Assembly: GCA_944371315.1 (NCBI GenBank)
Contig: CALVXN010000005.1
Location: forward strand, 1-44,672
DNA from: an uncultured Bacilli bacterium
GTDB lineage: Bacteria > Bacillota_I > Bacilli_A > RF39 > UBA660
DNA length: 44,672 bases
Direction: 5' to 3'
How positions within the stretch are numbered: position 1 is the stretch's first letter; each line of letters begins with the position of its first letter. The notes beneath the pieces were generated by a model. It did no database searches. It was given only the letters and a program-made list of their open reading frames with translations, and was not told the origin of the DNA. The position numbers and the translations under genes are program-made. Shown here in pieces: positions 9,776 through 13,100 of the stretch.

Positions 9776-10600
9776 ATGAAAAAAAATATTATTTACTTGA
9801 CAATACTTGGACTACTATTTCTTATTTTTAAAAATTATAATATTGTTTTAGAAAGCTCTATTACTGCTGTAAATTTATGGCTATATAAAGTTTTCCCTTT
9901 TCTTTTTATAATGATTATAATAAATGACTTATTAATTAATCTTGATTTTCAATCATTATTTAAAAATACAAGTATTTATATATTTATTATGTCTTTATTA
10001 AGTGGTAGTCCTACTTCTGCAGTTATAATATGTAATTTATATAAAAATAATAAAATAACTAAAAATAATGCTAATGTTACTCTTTTATTTACTTACTTTG
10101 CTAATCCTTTATTTTTATGGACTATCTTAAATTCTATTTTTAATTCTAAAATAATTTCTATTAAACTTATTTTAATTCATTATATATCTAATCTAATTAT
10201 ATATTTTATAGTAAAGAAAAAACTAGATAAATCAATTACTTATAATAATAAGATAAATATTAATATATCTAGTTCCATTAAAAAAGCAATGACTACAACT
10301 ACTATGGTTCTAGGGGCCATTACTTTTTATCTAATTATTAGTAATATATTATCTTTAAATTTATTATTTAAAGGTTTACTTGAAATGACTCAAGGTTTAA
10401 ATGCTTTAATTAATTATAATTCTTATTTTAAAGAGCTTTTAGCAATTCTTTTCATATCCTTTGGGGGTTTATCTATCCATACCCAAGTTAAATGCATTTT
10501 AGATGAAGAAAATATCTCTTATAAATATTTTTTAAAGGGAAGAATTATGCAAACATTAATTGCATTAGGACTTATTATATTAACTAGTGCATGGATCTGA
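9776..10600 (+). CDS. ylbJ: Sporulation integral membrane protein YlbJ-like
   Basis: 274 residues, very hydrophobic, with about seven or eight membrane segments. The central motif SGSPTSAVIICNLYKNNKIT followed by LFTYFANPLFLW matches the conserved core of YlbJ (nucleoside-transporter gate-like fold), which in B. subtilis is made in the mother cell and is needed for heat-resistant spores. It is shorter than the Bacillus protein (about 400 residues), so the N-terminal or middle loops are reduced. The start has AAAGGAT about 6 bases upstream. Its 3' end overlaps the convergent prepilin gene by 21 bases. Confidence 0.7.
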   Translation: MKKNIIYLTILGLLFLIFKNYNIVLESSITAVNLWLYKVFPFLFIMIIINDLLINLDFQSLFKNTSIYIFIMSLLSGSPTSAVIICNLYKNNKITKNNANVTLLFTYFANPLFLWTILNSIFNSKIISIKLILIHYISNLIIYFIVKKKLDKSITYNNKININISSSIKKAMTTTTMVLGAITFYLIISNILSLNLLFKGLLEMTQGLNALINYNSYFKELLAILFISFGGLSIHTQVKCILDEENISYKYFLKGRIMQTLIALGLIILTSAWI

Positions 10601-11173
10601 TGGTGAAGAACATGTTGCTCCAAGACAATTTATATTTGTGGTTACTAAATCATCAAGTTTCCCAATATAATTTATTATGATATCATCAAGAGTATTATTA
10701 TTACATAATTTATTCTTTTCATTAGTTGTATGTATTTCTATATCTATTGATAAACTATAATAATTTTTTCCAGAAGCATTATTGTCCTTCATATAATATA
10801 CATTTGCTTTTTTTGTGTATATTGTTCCACCTTCAATATTCCATGCTCTACTTTCACCATCACTATCAGTATATTTTATCTTTTTTTCTTCTGCTTCTAT
10901 TTTAGAACTAGTTCTATCAGTAAATTCAATATTAATAACTAGTTTAGTTTCATTACTTCCAGAATCATTTATACTAGCTATATTTTTATTATTTAAGTCA
11001 TTTCCTATCATTCTAAGTATTTCTGCTCTATTTATTTGATTATCCTTAGCATATGTATTATTTGCCTCAGCATCATTTAAATCTATTAATAACTTTATCA
11101 TAAATAATAACACAACAGAAATTAATGCAATACTTATTATTAATTCAGCAAGGGTAGTTCCTTTTTTATTCAT
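10580..11173 (-). CDS. Type IV prepilin-like protein
   Basis: 197 residues. The N-terminus MNKKG-TTLAELIISIAL is a class III (type IV) prepilin leader: basic, cut after Gly5, with Glu at position 5 of the mature protein and a ~20-residue hydrophobic helix. The remainder is a small polar domain with a Cys-rich C-terminus (CLGATCSSPSDPCTS, four Cys in the last 35 residues including CNNN). It is the last gene of a three-gene minus-strand cluster (12665 to 10580) with junctions of 8 and 2 bases, so probably one transcript. It likely forms a minor pilin or pseudopilin assembled by the ATPase at 25478. Confidence 0.75.
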   Translation of the reverse strand: MNKKGTTLAELIISIALISVVLLFMIKLLIDLNDAEANNTYAKDNQINRAEILRMIGNDLNNKNIASINDSGSNETKLVINIEFTDRTSSKIEAEEKKIKYTDSDGESRAWNIEGGTIYTKKANVYYMKDNNASGKNYYSLSIDIEIHTTNEKNKLCNNNTLDDIIINYIGKLDDLVTTNINCLGATCSSPSDPCTS

Positions 11174-11175
11174 GA

Positions 11176-12072
11176 CTAACCTCCGATTATATATGGATCC
11201 ATTTCTGATCCACTACCACTAATATATCTATTACTATTACTTAATACTACAACTGGTCTAACACTATATGTATTAGTTATTTCACCAGATGCAACATTCC
11301 CACTAGTATCTATATAAAAGAAATTTTTTATATTATTAAAGTCTCTTACCATTGTCCACATATTAGGTACATTTTTAAGCCAGTTATTTGCAGTATTATA
11401 TTCATTTACTTTTTTAACCCAATCACCTGGTGCTGCAGCATAAGCATAATCACTTATATATAAAAGACCAACTTTACTATATACTGCTCCATATGCATTA
11501 CTATTTTCACCTAGCTCTAAGCTATATACCCCATTAGCAGTTAAATCTAATTTTATATCTTCATCACTTGGCACATACCAATAATTATTATCTATTGCAT
11601 CTTCAACATCTACCAATGTATTTAAATATTCATCAGTTAAATAATCAGTATATAAATTACTTGTTACATAATCATTTTTATTATTATCAGTATATGTTCT
11701 AGTTGTAATAGCTTCATTTCTAATTATTTTTACTTTCCCATTAATTACACCAATTATTCGCCATAACTCATTATTGAATTTTACATAATTACTTGGATTA
11801 GATCCACTATATCTATAATTATTATCATTTGCTCCATTTGTTAAATCAGCATCATGATAATAAAGTCCATTTTCTCCGTCAGTAGTATATACTTCATTTA
11901 TTATATAACTAGCAAAACTACTAATAGCAATTTCATCTTTTATTTTTTCTTTTATTCCATTTAATAGTGTTCTATTACTTACTAAATTATTTACTATAAA
12001 TAAAAGCATTAATAAAAATACTAAAAAAAATGAATAAACTGTTGTTGTTGAAATAAAACCTTTTTTATTCAT
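11176..12072 (-). CDS. Pilin-like anchored protein with lectin/FGE-like C-terminal domain
   Basis: 298 residues. The N-terminus (MNKKGFISTTTVYSFFLVFLL) resembles a prepilin leader plus helix, but Glu5 of the mature pilin is absent (T or V there), so processing is uncertain. From ~residue 50 (SFASYIINEVYTTDGENGLYYHD) to the end it is homologous to the C-terminal half of the protein at 12926-14536: W-R-I-I-G-V, then WTMVRDF, then SVRPVVVL and DPYIIGG. The SVRPV-type ending is typical of C-type lectin/formylglycine-enzyme-like surface domains. Its own C-terminus has ordinary AT-rich codons, in contrast to the paralogue. It is the middle gene of the pilin cluster. Confidence 0.7.
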   Translation of the reverse strand: MNKKGFISTTTVYSFFLVFLLMLLFIVNNLVSNRTLLNGIKEKIKDEIAISSFASYIINEVYTTDGENGLYYHDADLTNGANDNNYRYSGSNPSNYVKFNNELWRIIGVINGKVKIIRNEAITTRTYTDNNKNDYVTSNLYTDYLTDEYLNTLVDVEDAIDNNYWYVPSDEDIKLDLTANGVYSLELGENSNAYGAVYSKVGLLYISDYAYAAAPGDWVKKVNEYNTANNWLKNVPNMWTMVRDFNNIKNFFYIDTSGNVASGEITNTYSVRPVVVLSNSNRYISGSGSEMDPYIIGG

Positions 12073-12080
12073 AGCTTCAC

Positions 12081-12665
12081 CTACAAACCTAATGATACAA
12101 AATAATTACGACAATTTGTATCAACTCTTGGAGTGCATTTAGTAATTTTACCATCACTATCTACTTTTTCACTATATTCAACTACTAAATAATAATCATG
12201 TTTTGTATCATTTATTGATTTAATATAATTTGTTAAGTTATATGCATTATCTGTTGCATTAAAATAACATTTACCTGATGTTTCACTTCCATCACATTCA
12301 TCTATATAATTTCTTTTAACTAAAAACATTTGATTAACCTTAAAATTATTTAATATATTTTCTAACGTATTATTCATATTTTCCGCTAATTGTGCTTCAT
12401 TAAAAAAGTTATCAAATGCATTTCCTATTGACGTTACATATGATTTTTTAAATGCTTCACTTTTAACATATTCAATATTAGCGTTTTCTTCTAAAAATCT
12501 TTTTATATAATTAGTTTTATAGATATATGCTACATCATCATAATACACTCTTGTTTCTTCTTTATCAATTATATTATTGTAAGAATTATATAAATATAAT
12601 AAAGAAGTCGACAAAACAAGAACTGTAACAATAGTTTCAATAAATACAAAACCTTTATTTTTCAT
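12081..12665 (-). CDS. Type IV prepilin-like protein
   Basis: 194 residues. MKNKG-FVFIETIVTVLVLSTSLLYLY is a clear prepilin leader with Glu5 after the predicted cut and a hydrophobic helix. The body is polar, with four Cys (positions in DECDGS, GKCYF, KCTPRVDTNC) that may form disulfides. It is the first gene of the three-gene pilin cluster, read from a promoter at about 12703-12731. The body matches no family I recognise. Confidence 0.72.
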   Translation of the reverse strand: MKNKGFVFIETIVTVLVLSTSLLYLYNSYNNIIDKEETRVYYDDVAYIYKTNYIKRFLEENANIEYVKSEAFKKSYVTSIGNAFDNFFNEAQLAENMNNTLENILNNFKVNQMFLVKRNYIDECDGSETSGKCYFNATDNAYNLTNYIKSINDTKHDYYLVVEYSEKVDSDGKITKCTPRVDTNCRNYFVSLGL

Positions 12666-12817: not shown

Positions 12818-12881
12818 TGCTTTTAAAGCCATACCAACGATAAAATTAAATGCTTATTTATTATTTTTTGTTGATAAGTCC

Positions 12882-12925: not shown

Positions 12926-13100
12926 TCACACCGCAATTCTAAATGGCGAATCCTTTGTCCCATTTCCACTGGCATACGGGATATTAGACTTCAGATAAAA
13001 GACAGGCCTAACAGAATAGCCATTATACGCGTAGCTAGTGTAGAGATTGCCGTTATAATTAAAGTTAAACACATCGCTGGAGGCGGACGAATTCGGGGTC
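12926..13100 (-). other. Candidate DGR variable region (GC-rich 3' cassette)
   Basis: The last ~58 codons of the 536-residue gene change abruptly from AT-rich codons to balanced ones just after the conserved WTM motif. Residues after WTM are encoded by many NNC codons (TCC, GCC, TCC, AGC, AAC, AAC, GGC, CTC, TAC, AGC, TAC), the outcome expected when AAC codons of a template repeat are mutated at their adenines. The exchange ends in a stretch (SPFRIAV) next to a GC-rich hairpin. The paralogue at 11176 lacks this composition. Neither template nor reverse transcriptase is in the window, so this is an inference. A piece acquired by recombination is the main alternative. Confidence 0.5.

Follow-up and report, generated by a model that had tools for sequence, protein, structure and literature searches.

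A surface protein gene with a composite 3' end

The window, that is, the entire 44.7-kb stretch of DNA analyzed here, has an overall GC content of 24% and contains a gene (Table 1) whose product combines an N-terminal membrane or signal segment, a beta-rich region, and a C-terminal DUF6273/lectin-like domain with a variable region (VR) at its very end. An initial annotation, made from the sequence alone, called attention to an abrupt switch in codon composition near the end of this gene, and the switch is indeed sharp: the GC content of third codon positions is 0.52 in the last 58 codons vs 0.10 in the remaining part of the gene, and does not exceed 0.22 in any other 58-codon stretch. The SVRPVF tail and the GC-rich hairpin past the stop codon noted at the same time are both present, the former within the C-terminus WTMTPNSS...SVRPVFYLKS. 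Three pilin-like genes adjoin the target gene (positions 10580-12665). One of these consists of a pilin-like N-terminus and a DUF6273/lectin-like domain that lacks a VR; in this paralog, the tail is of the usual AT-rich composition (GC 0.28), in line with the ordinary codons initially stated, and neither the hairpin nor the DnaA-box-like nonamer described below follows the gene.

Table 1. Coordinates of the target locus in the window and of the template repeat on contig C29
Feature	Position	Strand	Basis or remark
Target gene, 536 aa	12926..14536	-	ORF; family alignment; AlphaFold2 model of residues 256-536
Variable region (VR), 89 bp	13008..13096	-	TR/VR comparison; ortholog divergence
Common 3' end of TR and VR, TCTGTTAGGCCT (TR: TCTGTTAGTCCT)	13004..13015	-	TR/VR similarity stops here
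Conserved template-free cassette tail, GC-balanced codons, RPVFYLKSNI...	12926..13007	-	kept in remote targets
GC-rich hairpin, 9-11 bp stem, 9-nt loop CATCTCAAA	12882..12912	-	DNA fold z = -5.4
DnaA-box-like nonamer TTATCAACA	12869..12877	-	directly 3' of hairpin
Non-VR paralog (comparison)	11176..12072	-	pilin-like N-terminus and same domain family as target gene
Non-coding template repeat (TR), ~90 bp	L023:9478-9572	-	directly past RT stop on C29

The initial annotation proposed the entire segment 12926-13100 as a candidate VR of a diversity-generating retroelement (DGR). This assignment stands for positions 13008-13096, which pair without gaps with a template repeat (TR) on contig C29 of the same genome (L023:9482-9570, minus strand), and fails for the terminal 82 bp, which separate the end of the VR from the end of the ORF and differ from the syntenic ortholog at only 3 of 82 positions. 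The VR thus lies at the 3' end of the coding gene and, because it is limited to this short segment, the balanced codons continue outside the mutated segment and are a mark of the entire cassette, tail plus hairpin. The shared segment at which the similarity between the TR and VR stops is a candidate IMH-like end of the VR.

The 281 C-terminal residues of the protein (256-536) were modeled using AlphaFold2 with a pLDDT of 92.7 when 53 sequences were given as input, compared with a pLDDT of 40 for 20 sequences. A Foldseek search with the model retrieved a bacterial IgA peptidase domain (8e-7) and DUF6273 proteins of phages (8e-6), along with weak matches to the C-terminal domain of Legionella Lcl (E = 0.14, probability 0.84) and to human C-type lectins (E about 1); a profile search of PDB sequences yielded no match. 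A lectin-like, ligand-binding role of the C-terminal domain appears likely.

A reverse transcriptase, its template and nine targets

As the initial annotation had observed, the window itself encodes no reverse transcriptase (RT) and contains no template, so that the gene would have to be a remote target. We searched the genome from which the window originates, a 93%-complete metagenome-assembled genome (MAG) of 1.085 Mb in 58 contigs, and found VR-homologous DNA on contigs C35, C2, C56, C19, C26, and C28 and in three places on C29. Altogether, nine genes with varied N-termini contain a VR, two in cis on C29 and seven remote ones, including the window gene. Both an RT and the matching repeat, of about 90 bp, are found on C29. 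The RT is an intact ORF of 352 codons with the DGR-type motifs IGNMTSQ (SQ in motif 4) and YMDD, and matches the RVT_1 profile (E = 8e-19) and the PHROG reverse transcriptase family (2e-58). It is accompanied by an Avd-like protein that, by profile comparison, is a divergent member of the Avd family (NF033474 Avd, E = 1.5e-9 but 38 bits against a cut-off of 80 bits; bAvd, E = 1.3e-6; PHROG Avd, 4e-9). As the genome is only 93% complete, a second template could be missing from the assembly. The only other RT match, on C44 (L030:2612-4471), does not belong to a DGR; it is an abortive-infection RT of the AbiA type (TIGR04499, E = 6e-126) with a HEPN-like C-terminus, that is, a separate defense gene.

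Several features of the targets and their surroundings are worth recording. The VRs of the two cis targets on C29 (L023:8018-8110 and 11655-11747) are identical, and so are those of two cis targets in another species (L126:3117 and 10251); recent duplication, gene conversion, or a shared cDNA could each produce such identity. The VR-family gene on C28 (L029:3806-5134) has diverged strongly from the template, lacks both the hairpin and the nonamer, and is probably a retired target. The template is separated from the second cis target by a region that includes a 95-aa ORF (L023:9051-9338) with no family match of note and a similar-looking counterpart in the DGR on contig C15 of the sister species; this could be a new accessory gene.

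Relatives of the RT are present in 23 of the 30 congeneric genomes and in 41 of the 145 genomes sampled from the family, and those that could be named come mostly from MAGs of uncultured Bacilli. No relatives were detected among the viral contigs of IMG/VR, the phage RTs among the matches listed are less than 40% identical, and the neighbors on C29 look cellular; we therefore rejected a phage origin of this DGR.

Adenine-specific divergence and the template state of the variable regions

The expectation that mismatches between the VR and the template fall at template adenines was borne out for other targets of the resident TR, with 20 of the 21 mismatches at adenines in C2 (p = 6e-10), 17 of 19 in C35, 11 of 13 in C56, and 18 of 23 in C29, but not for the window VR, in which 12 of the 23 mismatches are at adenines and 11 are elsewhere (p = 0.09-0.12, not significant), with an excess of third-position C/T mismatches. 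The VRs on C26 and C28 match the resident template poorly as well. Compared to the template of a sister species (G029, record CASFPB01), the window VR shows 11 mismatches at adenines and 6 at other sites (p = 0.01); hence it does not cleanly match any template compared. In an adenine-tolerant scan of the retrieved loci, no better template was found than that on contig C6 of the sister species (10 violations), and the templates on its contigs C15 and C33 fit no better.

The sister species contains a corresponding DGR, with 97.8% identity between the RT genes at the DNA level. Its template differs from the resident one by nine substitutions, all synonymous in the reading frame of the targets, as expected if the template is selected through the protein that it writes, and by a 15-bp in-frame tandem duplication (CTGAACAATAACAAC; L032:1859-1960, G029:C6), which would make the VR longer in every target rewritten from it and is carried by none of the VRs seen. 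Given that the templates of the two species differ at synonymous sites only, VRs can be dated, in order, by the template state they carry. With the duplication collapsed for this comparison, the window VR has the sister-species state at 7 of the 8 informative sites, and the VRs on C56, C35, and C2 mostly have the resident state. By this criterion, the window VR most likely is a snapshot of an older, sister-species-like template, from which it would have been last rewritten; this proximity to the older template accounts for the non-significant result with the resident one.

The syntenic ortholog of the window gene, on contig C18 of the sister species, has the same neighbors, and the locus is not uniform between the two relatives: the VRs differ at 21 of 89 positions, compared with 106 of 1440 upstream. 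Within the VR, the differences affect 15 of the 34 template-adenine sites vs 6 of the 55 other sites (p = 5e-4); none of the 88 circular shifts of the template mask reaches the observed bias, which also persists when codon positions are matched (p = 0.001). When four ortholog pairs are pooled, 79 of 136 adenine sites differ vs 54 of 220 others (p = 2e-10). The C56 pair, by itself, shows no significant adenine preference (22/34 vs 28/55, p = 0.15), and the sister copy of this target has lost its resemblance to the template. At the level of sequence comparison, the adenine-site divergence from the ortholog shows that the VR was diversified at about the time the species separated or later, which, along with the RT and template on C29, supports the original reading of the gene as a remote DGR target.

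The position in the sister genome that is syntenic to the window gene is the site of a second DGR (L109, G029:C15:36000-45337), in which the RT is split and there are two targets, the first of which joins the N-terminus of the window gene to a C-terminus of the cis-target type. Perhaps the window gene is derived from a locus that formerly possessed its own DGR.

A hairpin and a DnaA-box-like nonamer behind the targets

The hairpin begins about 95 nt beyond the end of the VR. The same hairpin pattern occurs seven times in the genome, each time directly behind a VR gene, and the reversed pattern does not occur at all. In related species, the stem sequences differ (for example, CCTCCG...CGGAGG or CCCTCGCCG...CGGCGAGGG) and the position after the stop codon is kept. 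The nonamer that follows the hairpin has the consensus TTATC(A/C)ACA on the coding strand and is usually located 44-55 nt past the stop codon. In the window, TTATCMACA occurs once, with about two occurrences expected by chance, so that the position of the nonamer is what matters, rather than the count; the genome contains 111 copies on both strands. The region around dnaA (oriC) includes 32 sites with at most one mismatch to the nonamer vs 7.8 expected, among them exact copies of TTATCAACA and TTATCCACA. Because the dnaA region is so densely packed with this nonamer, we take it to be the DnaA box of this lineage.

Among the 60 VR-family genes examined, 22 have the box within 130 nt past the stop codon vs 0.3 expected, a contrast that overstates the significance because the cassettes share ancestry. 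We further searched 30 congeneric genomes for the CGGAGG-gap-box pattern, with the reversed pattern as the control, and identified 26 sites, compared to none for the control. All but four of these sites directly follow intact VR target ORFs, at 44-51 nt (22/26); two more (L266 and L278) lie behind apparently broken target tails, and two are unrelated. The CGTGGT variant is present at six sites in the genome of the window, all at VR genes, and at four sites in the sister species, where the site on contig C4 lies behind an apparent target tail at the contig edge. The box is absent behind targets without the hairpin and has been lost in some targets that retain it. A gene with a different type of VR (L183:746, G022:C63) is followed by an unrelated hairpin with TTATCAACA directly behind it, 69 nt past the stop codon, and is, possibly, an independent case of the hairpin-plus-box module.

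The box was not found in the DGR regions of BPP-1 or of the Faecalibacterium phage Lagaffe, nor at the DGR targets of the other genera examined. An operator function of TTATCMACA was considered and dismissed; the inverted-pair sites examined lie within ORFs, and no operator family is apparent. A literature search, conducted mostly without subscription papers and hence no proof of novelty, produced no publication that names both DGRs and DnaA boxes. Thus, we found no earlier description of the hairpin-plus-box target module; the DGR is otherwise of a known type.

Interpretation and alternative explanations

The genome contains an RT, an Avd-like gene, a TR, VRs with adenine-biased differences, and a conserved hairpin-plus-box module. 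Positions 13008-13096 are, with little doubt, the VR of a remote target of the DGR on C29. Weighing against this reading are the imperfect template matches of the window VR and of the VRs on C26 and C28, and a distance between the VR and the hairpin that exceeds the one in phage DGRs. In known DGRs, a cDNA of the template that has been mutagenized at adenines takes the place of the VR in targets with the right 3' end and hairpin (PMC3240598, PMC8144416). Here, copying of the template RNA would likewise introduce errors at adenines. The resulting cDNA, made on C29, would home into C5, as well as other genes that share the VR end, the tail, and the hairpin behind it. In this way, one template would serve no fewer than nine surface proteins, two encoded in cis and seven at remote loci, by varying their predicted ligand-binding domain, and these proteins would bind variable ligands. 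The main competing possibility, plausible but clearly not the favored one, is that the window VR was once diversified by the same or a related DGR, is no longer reached by the resident template, and now drifts as ordinary coding sequence. Retirement agrees with the surplus of C/T mismatches at third positions and with the older template state, in contrast to the resident state of the VRs on C2, C35, and C56, and Treponema denticola SP32 has a comparable leftover remote target (PMC4891356); the intact hairpin and box at the window locus and the adenine-site divergence from the ortholog, which points to diversification around or after the species split, argue against it. Exchange of VR segments between paralogs by ordinary gene conversion, without reverse transcription, would fit the tail common to many paralogs and the identical VRs at the two pairs of cis targets, but leaves unexplained both the intact RT and Avd-like genes next to a non-coding template and the restriction of mismatches to template adenines (20 of 21 in C2), and is very improbable. 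Still less credible, to the point of being negligible, is a GC-balanced tail acquired horizontally with foreign codon usage and never diversified: the abrupt codon change alone speaks for it, and the template match, the RT, and the adenine-site divergence contradict it.

The role of the 3' module is far less certain. We tentatively propose, at somewhat less than even confidence, that the target sites of this lineage consist of the VR, tail, stop codon, hairpin, and DnaA box, and that DnaA, by binding next to the hairpin, either opens the DNA there or marks it, coupling mutagenic retrohoming at scattered chromosomal targets to DnaA or the replication cycle. It is an even call whether, instead, the module amounts to a transcription terminator, or else an ordinary DGR hairpin, beside a nonamer that either hitch-hikes or is recognized by some protein other than DnaA. 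On the opposite strand, the hairpin does score as a terminator, but it lacks a run of T on the strand of the gene itself. The box could persist by descent in cassettes of common ancestry and has been lost in the sister ortholog of the window gene (GTTATCATAA); however, it is kept at a fixed spacing behind differing stems in many species, is missing behind hairpin-less targets, and agrees with the nonamer present at the oriC of this genome. In the favored reading of the window gene as a remote target, the hairpin, perhaps together with DnaA at the adjoining box, would open the target.

Comparison with known systems and implications

The DGR described here shares with the prototype of Bordetella phage BPP-1 (PMC3240598) the RT, Avd, a TR with adenine mutagenesis, a VR at the 3' end of the target, and a downstream GC-rich hairpin. 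Unlike BPP-1, which has one cis target, a hairpin with a 4-nt GAAA loop within a few base pairs of the VR end, and no DnaA-box nonamer in the vicinity, it has seven remote targets, a 9-nt loop, about 95 nt between the VR and the hairpin, and a box behind the latter; the consensus hairpin of phage DGRs has a 4-nt GRNA loop and lies 4-34 bp past the VR (PMC3240598). Among bacterial systems, the T. denticola DGRs (PMC4891356) also have surface-protein targets far from the core cassette and a remote VR that fits the template of another strain better than the resident one, but they belong to a different phylum, and no hairpin-box module is described in the sections consulted. Cyanobacterial DGRs similarly combine dispersed paralogous remote targets per template with a C-terminal lectin-type domain, in another lineage and another domain family, and cis-acting features are merely suggested there (PMC7517822). 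In the trans-acting DGRs of Thiohalocapsa PB-PSB1 (PMC10907252), the template that matches a VR is, for some of them, found at another place in the genome, and one VR has no perfect template in the assembly; these systems differ in that the targets are putative conflict-system proteins and activity was shown from environmental reads.

A connection to replication comes from a DGR reconstituted in Escherichia coli, where retrohoming is tied to origin proximity and replication direction and the stem-loop of the target is proposed to make the open state last longer (PMC12875486). Given this dependence, the box suggests that DnaA may bind by the hairpin and help to expose the target; no DnaA box is mentioned for the E. 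coli system, whereas here the target itself has an origin-type nonamer. On contig C2, a single case, the target at 47.9 kb and dnaA at about 6.6-8.0 kb are both on the plus strand, so that this target would run in the direction of replication if oriC is located there.

The present DGR is a clear case, in uncultured Bacilli, of many unlinked surface proteins being rewritten from a single template, an arrangement that would be missed by the method of a survey of more than 30,000 DGRs, as its authors state (PMC8144416). For the question of how the cDNA of a DGR gets into its target, an origin-type nonamer at a fixed distance from the hairpin is a concrete, testable candidate for a link to replication.
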